Below, one piece after another: positions 7,740-17,012 of a stretch of 64,000 nt of DNA. The notes under the pieces are model-generated. The model saw only the letters and a list, made by a program, of their open reading frames with translations. It searched no databases and was not told the origin of the DNA. The first letter of the stretch is position 1. Every line of letters starts with the position of its first letter. This DNA comes from Cytobacillus oceanisediminis 2691. Its GTDB lineage: Bacteria; Bacillota; Bacilli; Bacillales; Cytobacillaceae. The DNA lies in the NCBI RefSeq assembly GCF_007678455.1, contig NZ_VEEP01000006.1, positions 124,001-188,000 of the forward strand. The letters run 5' to 3'. The translations under genes and the position numbers were made by a program.

Positions 7740-8108
7740 TCAGACCTTTTTATCCATTAAAATTCCCAGAAACTCTGTCATAGCTGCGTAGAAATCCAGC
7801 ATTTTTTTAGGCGGTATTTCCCTTACAACTTCATGTGTAACATCATCCACAATCGTTACGTAATATTCATTCAGTTTTTCATGATATTCAAATTTTAGCG
7901 AAGTCGGTGAGTTCTGGATGAAAAGATTTAGATTTCCAACCATTTCCTCTACCTTTTCTTTAGGAAAAACAAAACTATCTGCCGCCCCTTGATTTATGTT
8001 TAGCGGTAAAAACTCTTTTTCTATTCCTTTTACTAAGTCTGTTTCACCCTTTTGGGTAATTCTTGGCTGTGAGGAATTGAAGTTTGATGATATCGAGTTA
8101 ATCATCAT
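7740..8108 (-). CDS. flaG: FlaG family flagellar protein (YvyC type)
   Basis: The protein has about 122 residues. The C-terminal half carries the FlaG signature: LKFEYHEKLNEYYVTIVD, then EVVREIPPKKMLDFYAAM. FlaG proteins influence filament length and are usually next to fliD, as here. The start at 8108 (ATGATG, the second at 8105) follows GGGGGAG at 4-7 nt. An upstream in-frame codon at 8129 has no ribosome site. It is the first gene of the fliDST operon and is preceded by a strong SigD promoter. Confidence 0.88.
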   Translation of the reverse strand: MMINSISSNFNSSQPRITQKGETDLVKGIEKEFLPLNINQGAADSFVFPKEKVEEMVGNLNLFIQNSPTSLKFEYHEKLNEYYVTIVDDVTHEVVREIPPKKMLDFYAAMTEFLGILMDKKV

Positions 8109-8142
8109 GTGCTCCCCCTGAAATATCAATCTTTTAATATTA

Positions 8143-8221: not shown

Positions 8222-11200
8222 TTATTTAGGAACAGTAACAGTTGTTGCGCCGCCTTTCCCTCCATAGGATCCACGTATATAAACCGTTCCTCCCGCCGAA
8301 AGAGGCAAAACATTGATCAGTCCGTTCCCATCGACTGTTGCTAAATTAGCATTGCTGGTACTGAATAGAGTAAAAGCTGTTACATCCTGGTTACTGCCGT
8401 CAGAGTAATTGGCAATTACCTGTACGTTATACATACTCCCTTTTAAAAGAGTGATAGATAAAGGTTTAAATGTAAGGCTCTGTACTGTTGGTTTAGCAGG
8501 TATTGTGATTGTTGCAGAGCTGCCCTTTCCATTAAAGCTTCCGCGAATATAGACAGTTCCAGGTGTTGCTGTTGACAGCACTGTTATTAGGCCTGCTGAA
8601 TCTACTGTTGCAAGGGACGGATTGCTGCTAGTAAATGAGACTCTTGATGTAACATCCTCAGAAGTCCCATCCGAATACTCCGCGACAACATTCAACTGTA
8701 GCGTCTCACCATTCTTTAAAGATGCGCTTGAAGGCGTGAACTTTAAATTCGAAACTGATGCCGGAGGATCAATTGTTATGGTTGAAGCCGCTCCTTTTCC
8801 TCCAAAAGTACCCCGTATATAAAGTGACCCGCCAGTAGTTGGAGAGACAGCGGTGACAAGTCCGGCCGGATTTACCGTCGCAAGATTTACGTTGCTAGTT
8901 GTAAAGGCTGTTTGAGATGTAACATCCTGAGCAGAACCATCGGAATAGATTGCAGTAACGCCTATTTGAATAGTTTCCCCAGCTTTTAGTGTTGCCTTAT
9001 CAGGATTAAAGGATAAACCAACAATGTATGGCTTACTAACTGTAAGTGAAGTTGAACCTCCCTTCCCTCCAAACGAACCTTGGATATTGACAATTCCATT
9101 CGGAGCTGTCGCTGGAATGCTCACCAAGCCTGTAGTTTTATCCACCGAGGCAAGAGTAGCATTTGAGCTTATCAGAGATGCTTGATTAGTTACATCTACA
9201 CTTGTTCCATCTGTATAATTTGCCATGACATTAATCTGTACAGAGTCCCCTGGTTTGACTGTTTTTGCGGCTGGTGTAAAGGTCAGACTTGATACAGTGG
9301 GGGCAGCAGGTATGGTAAAAGAAGCTGCTCCTCCCTTTCCTCCATAACTTCCTCGAATGTAAACCGTCCCTCCTGTTGCAGAATCGAGGACAGTGACCTG
9401 TCCAGTAGCAGGGTCAACAAAAGCTTGGCCAGGAAGGCTGCTTGTCAGCCCTGCATTTGCAGTAACATCTTCACTTGTACCATCTGAATATTTAGCGATC
9501 ACTGTTACCTGTGCCTTTTCACCTGTAAGTAAGGTCTGTTTATCAATAGTAAATTTCAGTTCAGTTACTATTGGAGGATTAGGAACTGTTACAGTAGCAG
9601 CTGTTCCTTTACCCCCAAAAGAACCTCTAATATATAAAGACCCGCCAGAAGCATCCCCCGCTACAGTAGCTAAACCTGAAGAATTTACCATAGCCAGACT
9701 CTCATTGCTGCTTTGATAAGCAACCTGGGAGGTGACATCAACACTTGTTCCATCTGAGTATTCTGCGATGACTTGGAATTGCTGAGTCTCATTTCTTTTT
9801 AAAGTCACTGTGGAAGGGGTGATTTTCAACGAGTTTAATACAGGCAGTGCAGGTACAGTTATTTTAGAAGAAACTGTTTGGTTATTATATACTCCTGTAA
9901 TTGTCACTGTTCCACCTGTAGATGAAGATGGGATTGTTACTACTCCATGATGATCGACAACTGCTAAACTCTCGTTTCCGCTTTTATACGCTGTTGCACT
10001 TGTAACATCTTCCATTGTGCCATCAGAATAATTTGCAATAACCTTAAGCCCCTGACTGCTTCCCTGTTTTAATGTTATTTGTTCAGGTGAAATTTGAATG
10101 CCGGTAAATTCCCTGATTGAAGATACATCAATAATAGTTGCAGATGATATACCTGCATACTTGATATTGATTGATACCTGGCCATCCCGTGCAGTTTTCG
10201 GGATGGTAATTAGGCCGCTGTTGCTTACAATTGCAAGACTTGTGCTTCCGCTTAAATATGATGCACTCTTTGTCACGTCTTTTTTTGATCCATCAGCAAA
10301 TATGGCTGAAACCGTCAATTGCTGTGATTGTCCACTTTTTAACTGCATCGTTTCTGGTGTCACGAGAAGGGATACAGGTGGCTCGCTGATCTTAATGTTT
10401 ACTACAGCCGTTTTATCCTGATTTTTCACAATAATTGGAACAGCCTCTCCTGACACTGCTCCATCAGTAACCAAGATCATTCCATTCGGACTTACAAGAA
10501 CGGATGCAGGATCACTACTCTCATATGTGGTGCCCATTGAAGCATAGGTAACATCCTTTCTAGCACCATCAGAGTAAAGAGCACTCACTGATAATTGATG
10601 TTTCTCCCCAGATCCCAGCAGAACCTCTTGTCCAGCATTGAGTTGTAAAAGCTGAACTGAATTGACAGGCTCGTCCACTTTTACGTTAACAGTTGTGGTA
10701 TATGTTTGATGTGTTACTGTTATGACAGCCGTATCTCCAATCTGTGCGGCAGGCTGCAATGAAATAATCCCGTCCGCATTTACCAAAACGTTTTCTGAAC
10801 TGCTGCTGTATTTCGTACCCGAAGAAGCCTTCGAAACTTCGGAAATTGTTACACCATCATCCATCGTAATTTTTAAAGGAAGATTTTGTCCTTGGGCAAT
10901 AGAAACAGTACTCGGAGTCGCGGTCAATTTTGAAGGCACGCTTATATCCAATCCACCAATAACCGCTGGATTGCCTGAAGGAGACGTTGCCAAGACTGAC
11001 AAAAAATCAGGATATGTATTATATTCATCATGCCAGCAGCAGATATCCAAATCGTCTGTAATACCAATCGCTTGTCCTTCTGCATTCGGTGTAACATCTG
11101 AATACCCTAGATTAATATTAGCTGAGATATTCCCTACAGCACCAAGATAGGCATAAGGATTAGTAAAATCAGATGCAAAGCCGATCAATCCACCGCCATT

Positions 11201-11671
11201 ATTAATGAAAGATGCAATATCATTCTGACGGACCACAAGTTTGTTATGCTGTATCTGCGTTAGTCCACCATAGGTATTATGTTCATCACTGGATACTGCC
11301 AGCATGGCATATCCAGTGAAACCTTGAGTATCAATCGATGCTTCATCAACAAATTGGACTTTTTGGCCAGTTCCACTTCCTATGGCATTCCAGAAATCCG
11401 TTACATATTGTGAATTTGCACCAAAAACGAGAATGCCAGATCCCCCATTGGTCACTTTCGCACGAATGGAGTTAATAATATTTTGATAGACTGAGATAGG
11501 TCCGTGTCCGCCCGGGCCTCCATCTTCAGCATCAATCCCCATTAGGATAATCGGTCCACCCGAGGACTGGGCAACAGCGAGTGCCCTTGTCGGGACATTA
11601 GTAATAACGATTGAAAGCAATAAGACTATGCTGAGCAGAACCGATAAATTTTTTCTTATTTTGCCATTCAT
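8222..11671 (-). CDS. Giant secreted protein with about ten Ig-like (BIG2-type) repeats
   Basis: The 1149-residue protein has a signal peptide (residues 1 to about 33, hydrophobic core LLSIVLLLSIVIT, cleavage near TRALA-VAQ). An N-terminal domain of about 205 residues that I cannot name follows; it carries MGIDAEDGGPGGHGP and a Cys-Cys pair in DLDICCWHDEY. About ten repeats of 88-90 residues run to the C-terminus, each with the pattern L..TP...L..G....V.A.YSDG...DVT; the last six share YIRGSFGGKG. There is no LPxTG or membrane anchor, so it is probably released or wall-bound. The start at 11671 follows AAGGGGGAAG. A surface adhesin or matrix role is likely. Its position inside the flagellar cluster is unusual. 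Confidence 0.88.
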   Translation of the reverse strand: MNGKIRKNLSVLLSIVLLLSIVITNVPTRALAVAQSSGGPIILMGIDAEDGGPGGHGPISVYQNIINSIRAKVTNGGSGILVFGANSQYVTDFWNAIGSGTGQKVQFVDEASIDTQGFTGYAMLAVSSDEHNTYGGLTQIQHNKLVVRQNDIASFINNGGGLIGFASDFTNPYAYLGAVGNISANINLGYSDVTPNAEGQAIGITDDLDICCWHDEYNTYPDFLSVLATSPSGNPAVIGGLDISVPSKLTATPSTVSIAQGQNLPLKITMDDGVTISEVSKASSGTKYSSSSENVLVNADGIISLQPAAQIGDTAVITVTHQTYTTTVNVKVDEPVNSVQLLQLNAGQEVLLGSGEKHQLSVSALYSDGARKDVTYASMGTTYESSDPASVLVSPNGMILVTDGAVSGEAVPIIVKNQDKTAVVNIKISEPPVSLLVTPETMQLKSGQSQQLTVSAIFADGSKKDVTKSASYLSGSTSLAIVSNSGLITIPKTARDGQVSINIKYAGISSATIIDVSSIREFTGIQISPEQITLKQGSSQGLKVIANYSDGTMEDVTSATAYKSGNESLAVVDHHGVVTIPSSSTGGTVTITGVYNNQTVSSKITVPALPVLNSLKITPSTVTLKRNETQQFQVIAEYSDGTSVDVTSQVAYQSSNESLAMVNSSGLATVAGDASGGSLYIRGSFGGKGTAATVTVPNPPIVTELKFTIDKQTLLTGEKAQVTVIAKYSDGTSEDVTANAGLTSSLPGQAFVDPATGQVTVLDSATGGTVYIRGSYGGKGGAASFTIPAAPTVSSLTFTPAAKTVKPGDSVQINVMANYTDGTSVDVTNQASLISSNATLASVDKTTGLVSIPATAPNGIVNIQGSFGGKGGSTSLTVSKPYIVGLSFNPDKATLKAGETIQIGVTAIYSDGSAQDVTSQTAFTTSNVNLATVNPAGLVTAVSPTTGGSLYIRGTFGGKGAASTITIDPPASVSNLKFTPSSASLKNGETLQLNVVAEYSDGTSEDVTSRVSFTSSNPSLATVDSAGLITVLSTATPGTVYIRGSFNGKGSSATITIPAKPTVQSLTFKPLSITLLKGSMYNVQVIANYSDGSNQDVTAFTLFSTSNANLATVDGNGLINVLPLSAGGTVYIRGSYGGKGGATTVTVPK

Positions 11672-11750: not shown

Positions 11751-11790
11751 AAAAAACCTACCGTTGTCTTTAAGACAATGATAGGTTTTT
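11751..11790 (-). terminator. Terminator of the FN3/OmpL47 repeat gene
   Basis: The outer stem is AAAAACCTA (11752-11760) with TAGGTTTTT (11782-11790), and the inner stem is TTGTCTT with AAGACAA. The run of A before and T after lets it act in either direction. It is placed right after the stop of the upstream gene. Confidence 0.8.
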
Positions 11791-11809: not shown

Positions 11810-14800
11810 TTATTTTACCAGGACTTTAACATACGTACTGCCTTTTACAAGCTTTCCATCTACTAGGGCTTTAAATTCAACAAAGACATAGTCTTGATTC
11901 CAATCGAAGTCTGGTCGGTCAAATTTGAATTGTCCCTGTTTAGCTTGTTGGAACAGTCCCTTTTGATCACTCAGAGCCGGGACTCCATTTAAAGTCGCAG
12001 TCAAAAGATCAAAGCTGCCTTTCATACCTTGAGGAAGTGATGCTTTAACAGTAAAGGTACCCTTATTGCCAAGCATGACTCTAGGTAAAACTTCCAGATT
12101 GACCGGAATATAAACATCTATAGTTTTTTGCACGGTTGTAGACCATCCTGCATTATCAGTTACGATAATCTGAATTTGGTATTTTCCTGCCTGGTCAAAA
12201 GTAAGAGTATCTCCTTTTTTGAATGGCATACCGTTTACAAAAACCTCTTCTGAAGCAATACCAGACAGGTTGTCAAAAGCCTGGTAATCAAGGAGGATAG
12301 AATCACTTAGCTTGTATTCTTCACTTGATTCAAAGTTTACAGTCGGAGCTGTTTTATCAATCATAACTTCTTCAGTTTTGACTGCTTCCTTATTTCCAGC
12401 CTTATCTACACTATAGTAAGATACTTCATGAATTCCTTCTTCAGTAAGCTTGAACAATGTTCCTTCCTGATACTCAGACCCATCGACAGAGTAGAAGGTA
12501 TTCTCAACGCCGCTCAGATTGTCAGTGACAGAAAGACTTACCTCGACTTCTCCCTTATACCAGCTATCCTCAATGTTGGATTTTGTTTCAGGCGCTTGCG
12601 TATCTATGCTTACAGTTTCTGTCTTAACCTCTTCAACATTACCTGCATTGTCCACGCTATAGTACGAAACTTCATAAACACCTTGTTCAGATAACTCGAA
12701 GCTGGACCCCTCAGCAAATGACGAGCCATCAACAGAGTAATAAGTCTTTGAAACACCAGACAAATTATCCGTTGCACTCAAGGTGACGGTTACTTGGTCC
12801 TGATACCAGCCATCCGTAATATCAGATATTGTTACAGGTGCTGTTTTGTCAACCAGGACTGTTTTGATTTTTGCTTCTTCAATGTTCCCGGCATTATCTA
12901 CACTATAGTAACGAATTAAATGTAAACCTTCGTTCTTCAATTGGAAGTCAGTGCCCTCAAAATAGCTGCTACCATTGACAGAGTAAAAGGTTTTGCCAAC
13001 ACCGCTAAGATTGTCATCAGCGTTTAACTTTACTGTAAAATCAGCCTCATTTACTGCTGCCTCAGTTTCTGGAGCAGTAGTATCCAACTTTACTAATGCC
13101 GTTTTAATTTCCTCTTCATTCCCAGCCTTATCAATGCTGTAGAAAGAGATCACATGGATTCCTTCTTCAGATAGTGAAACACTTTCTCCCTCAATAAAGT
13201 CTGATCCATTTACAGAATAGAAGGTCTTTTCAACTCCGCAAAGGTTGTCGCTGGCAGTGAGGTTTAAAACAGCTTCTTTATTGGTCCATTTTCCGGTTGC
13301 GTCTGACACCGTTTCAGGAGCTGTTTTATCAATATGCACTTCCTGTGTTACTGCTTCTTCCTCATTTCCAGCTTTATCAATACTGTAAAATGAAACAAGG
13401 TACTCCCCTTCTTCAATCAAGGAAATGCTTGTTCCCTCAACATATTCAGAGCCATTTATTGAATAAAAGGTTTTATCTACTCCAGAATCAGCATCCTCAG
13501 CAGTCAGTGTCAGAGTAACTGCTTCTTTCGAACATGCCTCTGCAAAGTCAGAAACTGTTACAGGAGCCGCAGTATCTGTTTCCTCAACGACAACTTTAAC
13601 CGAAGTGTAGGCATCTCCTTCGGTACCAGATTCAGACACTGGAACGATCCAATATTCGTGTTCTCCTGGCTGAGGGTTGTTTATTGTAACTGTGGTATCC
13701 GAGGTGTTGCCAATAAATACGGGTTCACCATTAACGATTTCATAAAGATTGTAGGAATCCCCATTAGAAACAGGGTCCCAGCTGATTATTACATTATCCT
13801 TCGTCTGTGCCGGATTGTTCACAACAGGTGCAGTCAATTCAGGCTCAATGTAAAGAGAAACCTGGTTTGAATAATCTGATTCGCCAAAACGGGAATTATA
13901 AGATGTTACCTCATAAAGATGCTGGCCTGGATTTGCGTTAAATTTAAACTGCAGACTTGTTGTAGTACCTATGAATTTTCTGACCCCATCAACTAGTTCA
14001 TAAATTCTGTATCCTGATACATACTCTTGCTTTGTCCAATCCAGAATGACAACATTTCTATTTTCAACTGTTCCAGTCAGAGTTGGCGCTTTTAACTCCG
14101 GGAAACCTAAAAAATATTCAAGTCTGGACGCATCCTGAGATTCGCCGAATCGGTCACTATATGATGTAACTTCATAAATGTACTCACCCTCCGGCATATT
14201 GTAGAAGGTTGCTGCATTGCCAGTCTTGGTACTTACGAGCACACGCTCTCCATCCTTGATTTGATAAATCTTGTATGCAGTTGCATTCTCTGCTGCGTCC
14301 CATCGAAGAACAAAATCACTGCCATTCTGAACAGTTAAATTCAGATTTTCAGGCGCTTTCATCACCGGATGCACAAGATCGAACTCTACTCTCGAAACGG
14401 TAGCAGATTCACCAAAACGGTCAGACACCGTTGACAATTCATAGATATAATGTCCTTCTGGCATGTTTCTGTATGTCGTATTCAACGCAGAAGTAGACAG
14501 AATTAATTTCTTCTCACCGTCAATAATCTGGTAAAGCTTATAAGAGTTCGCAAATTCAGCTTGCGCCCACCTCAAATTAATGTCGTTTACATTTGTAAAA
14601 GAGTAAGTGAAGTTTCCTGGTGATTTCATTTCTGGATGAACCATATCCAGTTCTATCCGGAATGGCACTTCTGATTCACCAAAACGGTCACTTTGAGCAG
14701 TAACTTCATATACATGTCTGCCTTGTGACACATTTGAAATCAATTGGTTGGCAAGCTTAGTAGTTGCCAGAAGCTCCCTTTGTCCATTAATAATCTCATA

Positions 14801-15514
14801 GACTTTATAATTGGTCGCATAAGGAACTTTCACCCAGGAAAATACCAGGTCATTTCCGTTTTGGACTGCATATGAGACGATTGGCGATTGCAGTTCCGGG
14901 TGAACAACGGTAAAATCCAGCCTCGCTCCCTCAGCAGATTCACCAAAACGGGCTACATAGGAGGTAATTTCATACGTATAGCTGCCTTCAGGGTGATTCA
15001 CAAGAGTGTATGTCAGGTTCTTGGTTGTCCCTGCCAGTTCCCTTTTCCCGTCACTTACCCGATAGATATAGTAATCTGTTGCATACGCTGCCTTGTCCCA
15101 AGTTAATACATAGTCATTACCATTGGTTATAGAATATTTTGGATTCAACGGCTTTTGCATTTCGGGATAAATAACTTCTACAGTAACGGTGTTGGAAAGT
15201 GAGGTTTCTTGAGTCTGCCTGAATGCTGTCACCGCATAGTTAAAAGTCCCTTCCGGAACATTAAAAACCGTCGTTTCGATATCTGTGTAGCTTACCTGTT
15301 TAACGAGGGTCTGCTGTCCGTTACTGACCTCATAGATTTTGTAGCCGCTTGCCCCCGTTACCTTATCCCATGTCAGGATGATGTTACCTGGGTATGCCTG
15401 GTTTGCCCTTAGGTTTGTTGGAGTCAATATATCATATGCAAATACATTCGCTAAAGGGGAGAGCAGATTAAAAGTCATGATAAAAATCATGACTATCGAT
15501 AATTTTTTTAGCAT
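11810..15514 (-). CDS. Giant secreted protein: seven FN3 domains plus OmpL47-like repeats
   Basis: The protein has 1234 residues from the ATG at 15514, which has AGGAG upstream; the in-frame ATG at 15589 falls inside the riboswitch leader. The signal peptide is MLKKLSIVMIFIMTFNLLSP with cleavage near NVFA-YD. Seven fibronectin type III units of about 88 residues (about 30-640) share W....A..YKIY..., then YEVTSYSDRFGES and a PEM/PEL linker. About five to six OmpL47-like repeats (about 645-1140) carry TDNLSGV.KTFYSVDGS and YYSVDNAGN, with Asp pairs suggestive of Ca binding. A unique C-terminal domain follows. No sortase motif is present. It is probably an adhesin or matrix protein controlled by cyclic di-GMP. 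Confidence 0.9.
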   Translation of the reverse strand: MLKKLSIVMIFIMTFNLLSPLANVFAYDILTPTNLRANQAYPGNIILTWDKVTGASGYKIYEVSNGQQTLVKQVSYTDIETTVFNVPEGTFNYAVTAFRQTQETSLSNTVTVEVIYPEMQKPLNPKYSITNGNDYVLTWDKAAYATDYYIYRVSDGKRELAGTTKNLTYTLVNHPEGSYTYEITSYVARFGESAEGARLDFTVVHPELQSPIVSYAVQNGNDLVFSWVKVPYATNYKVYEIINGQRELLATTKLANQLISNVSQGRHVYEVTAQSDRFGESEVPFRIELDMVHPEMKSPGNFTYSFTNVNDINLRWAQAEFANSYKLYQIIDGEKKLILSTSALNTTYRNMPEGHYIYELSTVSDRFGESATVSRVEFDLVHPVMKAPENLNLTVQNGSDFVLRWDAAENATAYKIYQIKDGERVLVSTKTGNAATFYNMPEGEYIYEVTSYSDRFGESQDASRLEYFLGFPELKAPTLTGTVENRNVVILDWTKQEYVSGYRIYELVDGVRKFIGTTTSLQFKFNANPGQHLYEVTSYNSRFGESDYSNQVSLYIEPELTAPVVNNPAQTKDNVIISWDPVSNGDSYNLYEIVNGEPVFIGNTSDTTVTINNPQPGEHEYWIVPVSESGTEGDAYTSVKVVVEETDTAAPVTVSDFAEACSKEAVTLTLTAEDADSGVDKTFYSINGSEYVEGTSISLIEEGEYLVSFYSIDKAGNEEEAVTQEVHIDKTAPETVSDATGKWTNKEAVLNLTASDNLCGVEKTFYSVNGSDFIEGESVSLSEEGIHVISFYSIDKAGNEEEIKTALVKLDTTAPETEAAVNEADFTVKLNADDNLSGVGKTFYSVNGSSYFEGTDFQLKNEGLHLIRYYSVDNAGNIEEAKIKTVLVDKTAPVTISDITDGWYQDQVTVTLSATDNLSGVSKTYYSVDGSSFAEGSSFELSEQGVYEVSYYSVDNAGNVEEVKTETVSIDTQAPETKSNIEDSWYKGEVEVSLSVTDNLSGVENTFYSVDGSEYQEGTLFKLTEEGIHEVSYYSVDKAGNKEAVKTEEVMIDKTAPTVNFESSEEYKLSDSILLDYQAFDNLSGIASEEVFVNGMPFKKGDTLTFDQAGKYQIQIIVTDNAGWSTTVQKTIDVYIPVNLEVLPRVMLGNKGTFTVKASLPQGMKGSFDLLTATLNGVPALSDQKGLFQQAKQGQFKFDRPDFDWNQDYVFVEFKALVDGKLVKGSTYVKVLVK

Positions 15515-15573
15515 ATTTTTTCTCCTTTTTCTAATGAAAAAGGCCATCCGAAATTCAGGTTGAAATTTCAAGT

Positions 15574-15655
15574 GGTATCCGGCTGCCATCCAATATTAGA
15601 TTGGTTCAGGCCCATGGCTTTGCGTCTCATAGTTTCCTATGATTTGCCTTTTTCA
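15574..15655 (-). ncRNA. Cyclic-di-GMP class I (GEMM-I) riboswitch aptamer
   Basis: On the minus strand the leader has GGCAAA (15648-15643). Next is a 6-bp stem capped by a GAAA tetraloop (TCATAG-GAAA-CTATGA, 15642-15627), then GACGCAAAGCC (15626-15616), GGGCCTGAACC, and a second helix with a tetraloop-receptor-like GGATGGCAGCC ending GGATACC. These are the conserved features of GEMM-I in the right order. The start codon is about 60 nt downstream. The expression platform is unclear: a GGATGGCC followed by TTTTTC (15548-15536 region) could be the 3' arm of a terminator pairing with the GCCAT of the aptamer. Confidence 0.9.
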
Positions 15656-15656
15656 C

Positions 15657-15685
15657 AATTTAATAGTTATTTAATACGGCATCAA
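15657..15685 (-). promoter_or_regulatory. Candidate promoter of the riboswitch-controlled gene
   Basis: TTGATG (15685-15680), a 17-nt spacer and TAAATT (15662-15657) lie just upstream of the aptamer and after the hag terminator. Transcription would begin close to the 5' end of the aptamer, which is tight, so this is tentative. Confidence 0.35.
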
Positions 15686-15704: not shown

Positions 15705-15737
15705 TAAAGAGAGAGATCTTATAAATAAGATCTCTCT
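15705..15737 (-). terminator. Terminator of hag
   Basis: A 12-bp perfect stem AGAGAGATCTTA (15710-15721) and TAAGATCTCTCT (15726-15737) has a 4-nt loop and is followed on the minus strand by CTCTTTAC. It starts 14 nt after the flagellin stop. Confidence 0.8.
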
Positions 15738-15751
15738 TTATTTCATGCTGA

Positions 15752-16921
15752 TTAACGAAGAAGCTGAAGTACGCCTTGCGGCTGTTGGTTAGCTTGAGCA
15801 AGCATTGCTTGGGCAGCTTGAGAAAGGATAGAGTTCTTAGTCTGCTCCATCATTTCCTTCGCCATATCAACGTCACGGATACGAGACTCAGCAGCTGTCA
15901 AGTTTTCTTGAGATGTTCCAAGGTTGTTGATTGTGTGCTCCAAACGGTTTTGGAATGCACCAAGCTTAGAACGCTGAGCAGATACATCTTCGACTGCTTT
16001 GTTGATTGCAGAGATAGAAGCTTCGGCAGCTGATGCAGAAGAAACATCAATTTTGTCAACATGAAGTGCAGATGCTCTCATATCATTGATATCTACGTTC
16101 ATAGTTTGAGAAGAGTTAGCTCCAATCTGGAAGCTTAAAGTGTTATTAGCATATTCTTCAACTGAAGCACGTGAAGTGAAAGTAGCTTCTTTTCCGATAT
16201 CTTCTACTCCTACTGCACCAAGAGTTAAAACGTATGATCCATCAGCTGTAGCAATTGTCTGATCTCCACCAGCAGCAGCCACACCAGCAACAGTATTAGT
16301 TTGTCCATCCTGCGTAGTCCACTCTAATGTATAAGTAGCTGCAGCTGCATCGTAATCAGTGATTTTCACATTGATTGTTTCATCAGCTTCGGTACCAGGA
16401 GTTCCAGCTACTGCAGCAGTAGTAGCTTTAACAGCTGTGAATAGTGCTGTTTCACCTTGGTTATCAAAATTAACTTTACCAAGCTGTTCAGTTACACCGC
16501 TCTTAGAGCCGTCGATAAGCTTCTTTGTGTTGAACTCAGTAGTGTTACCGATACGATCGATCTCTTCAACTAGCTGATCCATTTCTTTTTGTAGCTCAGT
16601 ACGATCAGCATCAGTGTTTGAATCGTTTGAAGATTGTACTGCAAGCTCACGCATACGCTGTAGGATAGAGTGAGTTTCATTCAGTGCACCTTCAGCAGTC
16701 TGGATTAGAGAAATGCCGTCTTGAGCATTTTTTGCTCCCATTTCGAGACCGCGAATCTGGCCACGCATTTTTTCAGAGATTGCAAGACCTGCAGCATCAT
16801 CACCAGCGCGGTTGATGCGAAGACCTGAAGATAACTTTTCCATTGACTTGCTCTGTGCATTAGCAGCACCAGAGAACTGACGGTAAGTGTTTAAAGCAGC
16901 GATATTGTGATTAATTCTCAT
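15752..16921 (-). CDS. hag: Flagellin
   Basis: The 389-residue filament subunit starts MRINHNIAALNTYRQFSGAA, with the conserved N-terminal D0/D1 segment SSGLRINRAGDDAAGLAISE. The C-terminal D1/D0 ends QPQGVLQLLR, the export and polymerisation helix. The middle (about residues 160-280) is an Ala/Thr-rich variable surface domain, making it longer than the 304-residue B. subtilis Hag. The start at 16921 has AAGGAGG at 16937-16931. The long leader contains CsrA-type sites, and a SigD promoter lies upstream, as in B. subtilis where CsrA, FliW and FliS control flagellin translation. Confidence 0.98.
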   Translation of the reverse strand: MRINHNIAALNTYRQFSGAANAQSKSMEKLSSGLRINRAGDDAAGLAISEKMRGQIRGLEMGAKNAQDGISLIQTAEGALNETHSILQRMRELAVQSSNDSNTDADRTELQKEMDQLVEEIDRIGNTTEFNTKKLIDGSKSGVTEQLGKVNFDNQGETALFTAVKATTAAVAGTPGTEADETINVKITDYDAAAATYTLEWTTQDGQTNTVAGVAAAGGDQTIATADGSYVLTLGAVGVEDIGKEATFTSRASVEEYANNTLSFQIGANSSQTMNVDINDMRASALHVDKIDVSSASAAEASISAINKAVEDVSAQRSKLGAFQNRLEHTINNLGTSQENLTAAESRIRDVDMAKEMMEQTKNSILSQAAQAMLAQANQQPQGVLQLLR

Positions 16922-16930
16922 TTTGAATTT

Positions 16931-16961
16931 CCTCCTTGAAATTTGAGTCCACATCCATGTG
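16931..16961 (-). promoter_or_regulatory. CsrA binding sites in the hag leader
   Basis: Site 1 (16961-16950) reads CACATGGATGTG, a small hairpin presenting GGA in the loop, close to the CsrA consensus ACANGGANGU. Site 2 is the Shine-Dalgarno itself, CAAGGAGG (16938-16931). The two-site arrangement matches the known B. subtilis hag leader, where CsrA occludes the ribosome until FliW titrates it. Confidence 0.75.
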
Positions 16962-17012
16962 AACATTAGTTTGAAAGAATAGGTCGGCCGCACCATTCTC
17001 TTTACACTTATT

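Follow-up and report, generated by a model that had tools for sequence, protein, structure and literature searches.

I propose that a class I c-di-GMP riboswitch, lying in the gene's own monocistronic leader, controls translation of the giant secreted repeat protein P0001 with an OFF sign, i.e. that c-di-GMP would shut the gene down. I put the probability of this reading at about 0.58. The mechanism and its sign are what I infer; that there is an aptamer, where it lies and that it is conserved along with the gene family are observations, as are the terminator structures around the unit, and these come first.

The aptamer lies at the following position in the window, by which I mean the whole 64-kb stretch of DNA that was analyzed.

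15571..15658, minus strand: class I c-di-GMP riboswitch aptamer (RF01051, c-di-GMP-I), by cmscan, E 5.5e-12

It is the only Rfam match at gathering threshold across the window. The match spans positions 1-87 of the 87 in the model and scores 71.3 bits against a gathering threshold of 35, which places it in the family by covariance score. The initial annotation had read a class I aptamer at 15574-15655 from its motifs and had offered the Rfam GEMM-I covariance model as a check. The interval falls inside the match, the motifs are all present, and the hit is significant. The aptamer ends 56 nt from the ATG of P0001, a 5'-leader location with a candidate expression platform; a promoter scan of the leader region found no promoter. 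Surface protein genes preceded by class I switches are already known, and this predicted riboswitch in the P0001 leader is a new instance.

The surroundings of the aptamer bear on which gene it serves.

15752..16996, minus strand: hag (flagellin; NF009446, 382 bits), the upstream neighbor
15710..15737, minus strand: intrinsic-terminator-like 12-bp hairpin plus T run after hag (1/200 shuffles as good)
11810..15514, minus strand: P0001, a 1234-residue secreted FN3-like/OmpL47 repeat protein, with its ATG at 15514
11752..11790, minus strand: intrinsic terminator directly after P0001 (-18.0 kcal/mol, z -9.08, 0/200 shuffles as good)
8222..11671, minus strand: P0002, a 1149-residue secreted Big_2 repeat protein, by domain matches
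8213-8187: terminator-like hairpin after P0002, by terminator scan
7740-8129: flaG, on the far flank of the region

The placement between hag and flaG, claimed from the start, is right, in that both genes flank the region; downstream of P0001 come P0002 and then flaG, fliD and fliS. The further claim, that the riboswitch lies inside the flagellar operon, fails at the level of the transcript. One terminator structure (15737-15710) stands between hag and the riboswitch, and another (11790-11752) follows P0001. Given these and the hairpin after P0002, the riboswitch most likely serves P0001 alone, and P0001 most likely forms its own unit in the flagellar region, outside any flagellar transcript. 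P0002 is a second giant secreted gene within the hag-flaG interval and apparently a separate unit; cmscan of the window gave no Rfam match ahead of it.

The location between hag and flaG would also suit a riboswitch that regulates flagellar genes, either the 3' end of hag or flaG-fliD-fliS, and not P0001. I consider this very improbable, in view of the terminator structures after hag, P0001 and P0002 and of relatives, described below, that lack a flagellar reference gene next to the riboswitch.

The initial annotation called P0001 an FN3/OmpL47 protein of 1234 residues. The length stands, as do the OmpL47-type repeats, which are strong (NF047446, 340 bits against a cut-off of 40, E 9.1e-104), even though the protein falls below the cut-off of the Leptospira OmpL47 equivalog (NF047441, 185.1 vs 250 bits). 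FN3 (PF00041), tested over residues 1-638, misses by a narrow margin (24.6 vs 25 bits), and the protein is best called FN3-like only. A Sec-type signal peptide is judged present by eye. A motif search found neither LPxTG nor NPxTG, and there is no anchor domain among the Pfam and NCBIfam matches listed, which is not what a cell-wall-anchored adhesin would show. The label "adhesin" is a guess from the repeats.

Within the genus, gene and riboswitch go together. RF01051 sites occur in all 21 genomes searched, 3 to 12 in each and 6 in the window's own, which also has 12 GGDEF and 9 EAL matches over cut-off. P0001 is matched at E<=0.001 in 16 of the 21, and 9 of them, the window's included, have a strong homologue (E below 1e-100; the next best is 8.8e-30). 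In 9/9 of these genomes the strand of the gene carries RF01051 immediately ahead of it, with 56 to 83 nt left to the start codon. Upstream of the riboswitch, hag follows at about 0.1 to 5.3 kb in 8 of the 9; the contig of the remaining one (G014) stops before hag would be reached. In a tenth genome (G005), what lies between flaG and hag is another protein, of 886 residues and encoded on the opposite strand, which has a riboswitch of its own.

A search of genome contigs with P0001 itself returned no relatives. Those outside the genus were obtained with an alignment of the C-terminal region (A1), which gave 31 loci labelled Neobacillus, Robertmurraya, Niallia, Peribacillus, Fredinandcohnia, Mesobacillus and Bacillus, plus one Bacillota MAG and one "Clostridium pascui" contig. 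Thirty of them reach the 5' side of the gene and are usable (L127, truncated, was left out). RF01051 lies directly upstream of the family gene in 20 of the 30, where four (L104, L105, L115 and L120) are counted as riboswitch-bearing from the RF01051 search of the genus genomes, to which they are tied by contigs of equal length. The comparison of homologous loci recommended at the outset thus bears out the assignment of the riboswitch to the P0001 gene, the pairing being kept across genera.

A flagellar reference gene, meaning only hag, flaG, fliD, fliS, fliW or flgL, stands beside the family gene in 11 of the 20 riboswitch-bearing loci. Of the other 9, 8 have no such gene in the available stretch, and in L112 the only one is a fliD match at a distance of 6.6 kb. 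The gene and its riboswitch therefore stay together away from those flagellar genes. (A Rfam scan also places a group I intron in L112, at 311-661.) In all 10 loci that have no RF01051, the family gene stands directly behind hag. By eye, the gaps between the two contain hairpin-plus-T stretches, and I make no claim that the gene is co-transcribed with hag there. A look for shared motifs upstream of the leaders, covering 10 of 24 upstream stretches, gave nothing firm.

The proposed mechanism depends on a strand that can pair in two ways.

15646..15656, minus strand: 5' arm of the aptamer, GUGAAAAAGGC, which can form 11 pairs with the anti-SD element
15534..15544, minus strand: anti-SD element GCCUUUUUCAU, able to pair with either the aptamer arm or the Shine-Dalgarno (SD) region
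15522..15531, minus strand: SD region GAAAAAGGAG, the first 8 bases of which form a hairpin with CCUUUUUC (15543-15536)
15544..15575, minus strand: hairpin CCAC...UGG that uses the 3' edge of the aptamer (z -2.21, 5/200 shuffles as good)

When c-di-GMP is low, the arm GUGAAAAAGGC would pair with the anti-SD element GCCUUUUUCAU as the latter leaves the polymerase, the SD would be open and P0001 would be made. With c-di-GMP bound, the arm would be locked within the aptamer, the anti-SD element would fold onto the SD and translation would be shut. P0001 would be produced in the low-c-di-GMP, swimming state.

Both pairings of the window leader are better than chance. The duplex of arm and anti-SD element comes to -15.6 kcal/mol (p = 0.001 with 1000 shuffles, p = 0.006 with 500), and the SD hairpin to -8.6 kcal/mol (3/200 shuffles as good); the two have bases in common (GAAAAAGG), so these shuffle tests are not independent. 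In 14 of 24 family leaders, arm and platform are more complementary than shuffles at p<0.05; in L107, for one, the arm duplex has p 0.006. In many members the platform complements the conserved arm and core of the aptamer (e.g. UUUGCCUUUUUUUACA), and in many leaders the complement extends through the pocket sequence GCAAA. As a control, the arm duplex reaches p<0.05 in 3 of 40 other RF01051 leaders of the genus. These are 40 of 46 candidate loci, the rest being unparsed or duplicates, and as a set they too are slightly more complementary than expected (Fisher 116.8 on 80 df).

The 24 family leaders exclude L110, whose platform is different, and G005, whose protein is different; alignment A2, of 23 rows, also excludes L107. 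The start of L119 (ATA) was assigned by eye. Between aptamer and SD, A2 holds a terminator helix, with letters in 21 of the 23 rows, 99% of cells paired and 6 double-change cells. Support for the antiterminator is poorer: 93.6% of its cells are paired and 2 show a double change, and shifting it by 3 columns gives a covariation score that is no lower. The window leader has no counterpart of the terminator that is aligned in most of its relatives. Reading the sign of the switch from terminator and antiterminator was set aside, as modelled termination differs among leader groups on blocking of the core. With the U-tract complete, it goes from free to blocked as 0.22 to 0.77, 0.01 to 0.40, 0.52 to 0.99 and 0.01 to 0.47 in four group A leaders, is 0-0.06 in four group B leaders, and is 1.0 in both states in G005.

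The sign was approached instead through the folding of the SD, with bound ligand mimicked by keeping the aptamer core from pairing with anything outside it, a crude device that is uncalibrated on validated riboswitches. In the free transcript of the window, prefix folding gives the arm:anti-SD pairing a probability of 0.99-1.00 just before the SD emerges, and then from 0.94 down to 0.61 at the AUG. Once the core is blocked, the anti-SD element is paired with the SD at 1.00. When the leader is folded with 27 further coding bases, the SD is closed in the free form as well (0.98), which speaks against a switch that lasts to equilibrium.

Across the family, there are 18 leaders of the 24 in which blocking the core takes more than 0.1 off SD opening, and none in which it adds as much. 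The mean fall is 0.297, compared with 0.037 (sd 0.031) for shuffled platforms, and 0 of 60 shuffled sets reach so high a value; the family leaders are related, and such tallies are not independent. By origin, the change exceeds 0.1 in 15/15 leaders from outside the genus and in 3/9 from within it (the window's G000, G008 and G019); the 6 genus leaders that stay below this value count against an OFF sign. The method does not always answer OFF: among 15 further class I leaders from the genus, hand-picked because their start codon could be read, SD opening falls in 1 and rises in 4 (mean -0.079). In the case of L110, the free arm holds the 5' half of the terminator (0.98-1.00, against 0.01-0.03 when blocked) until the 3' half emerges. 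The finished terminator wins in both states, and the earlier prefix folding is the same logic acting on a terminator. The initial annotation had the motile-to-sessile messenger directly setting the level of an adhesin; as the comparative folding leans to repression, that motile-to-sessile logic is probably reversed, and c-di-GMP probably represses P0001.

An alternative view is that the leader is an ON switch, as in Bc2-cap. A hairpin at 15575-15544 that forms in the free state would, with the U5 run, terminate transcription, and c-di-GMP would keep the GGAUACC edge within the aptamer and allow read-through. The hairpin does take bases from the aptamer (-7.9 kcal/mol). The U5 run (15541-15537) starts 2 nt past it, and with GG:CC added the helix abuts UUUUU (-8.8), making a weak terminator possible. 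Bc2 itself is described as an ON switch ahead of an adhesin gene in B. thuringiensis (PMC4933901). However, the main 9 pairs of the hairpin form whether the transcript is free (0.85-0.99) or blocked (0.93-0.98). It is rich in AU and GU, was not flagged by the terminator scan and is not the terminator aligned in the relatives, and the family leaders lean OFF in folding. I regard the ON reading as unlikely.

Another view is that the window leader is a decayed or unresponsive copy, in which the aptamer is kept and switching has been lost. Its own switching is not significant (57/400 shuffles reach its change at the SD and 54/400 at the AUG, and its p is 0.10 within the 24-leader test of SD opening), and the terminator of its aligned relatives is missing. 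Its RF01051 alignment contains 2 non-standard pairs, one of which puts a G opposite the A of GGATACC, at a position where the other 22 rows of A2 carry T or C. This G.A mismatch, absent from those rows, may weaken the binding of c-di-GMP. There is precedent of a kind in Bc1, described as interacting with c-di-GMP with expression unchanged (PMC11218506). L106 may offer another: between hag and the family gene (L106:5005-5075) lies a hairpin like the arm plus the anti-SD element (-12.7 kcal/mol), possibly a riboswitch remnant, with no aptamer and no RF01051 match in the locus. Against decay stand the covariance score of the window aptamer and the fact that its SD hairpin and its 11-bp arm complement each beat shuffles, and I find the idea quite unlikely. 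The OFF switch acting on translation is the reading I carry forward.

Other class I riboswitches turned up in the genus. In the window's own genome, one (L002; G000:C221:215833-215919, minus strand) precedes a SinI-like anti-repressor (PF08671, 50.6 bits) and leans ON in folding, with SD opening of 0.18 free and 0.68 blocked; in Bacillus methanolicus, sinI has already been listed with a c-di-GMP riboswitch in front of it (PMC4342826). A second (L003; G000:C466:6678-6767, minus strand) precedes a giant RHS/YD-repeat protein of at least 2197 aa, and its arm also complements its own platform (p 0.005). Nine genus loci (L079-L085, L089 and L090) have one before a conserved membrane protein of ~45 residues (MSN...TPE..., by eye), a hand-typed member of which had no confident Pfam match. 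Weak RF01051 matches in L086 and L087 (38.3 and 46.5 bits) stand ahead of a membrane protein that, judged by eye, ends in what resembles a GGDEF cyclase, and feedback on c-di-GMP synthesis is possible there. In L073 and L075, stops separate the matched pieces of hag (from G006 and G011, respectively), as in several other genus genomes, perhaps owing to an inserted intron; between hag and the riboswitch of L073 is a 317-aa opposite-strand frame that resembles a LAGLIDADG endonuclease by eye.

Four known systems come closest to the one proposed. Bc2, before cap/cbpA in B. thuringiensis and the B. cereus group, is reported as a class I riboswitch that turns ON by antitermination, with CbpA predicted to be cell-wall-anchored and collagen-binding (PMC4933901, PMC7423583). 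It shares with the P0001 switch its class, a surface protein gene and a host among the Bacillaceae. It differs in that Bc2 is ON and CbpA anchored, whereas P0001 is predicted to be OFF at translation, lies in the flagellar region and had no anchor found. The sign predicted here is shared by two class I switches of C. difficile (PMC6200980). Cdi-1-2, before CD630_27970, is described as OFF ahead of a putative calcium-binding adhesin (-7.15 fold at high c-di-GMP); it is Clostridial, and the likeness noted here is that of the switch. Cdi-1-3, before the flgB operon, is described as OFF by termination and is likewise at a flagellar locus, but it controls flagellar genes, whereas P0001 is a separate surface protein. 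Bc1 of B. thuringiensis is described as combining control of transcription and of translation, with two terminators and no reported expression response to c-di-GMP (PMC11218506). Such combined control is what the platforms of most P0001-family relatives suggest. Among open-licence full texts (titles and abstract openings), I found no description of the P0001 family or of the genus in connection with c-di-GMP riboswitches.

A wider proposal, more tentative than that for the window, is that a giant secreted repeat family found across the Bacillaceae, and often in the flagellar region, consists of surface or filament-associated proteins of the swimming state that c-di-GMP directly switches off. 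In many members the ligand pocket and the ribosome site would compete for one strand, and the loci that have no riboswitch would keep the gene behind hag. The pairing ties c-di-GMP directly to a conserved, uncharacterized protein that many Bacillaceae encode in the flagellar region and secrete, and its relatives supply about two dozen natural leaders on which one switching rule could be tried. The predicted OFF sign is the opposite of that in the well-studied Bacillus case, Bc2-cap. If it is true, then "sessile-state adhesin" would be the wrong name for P0001.
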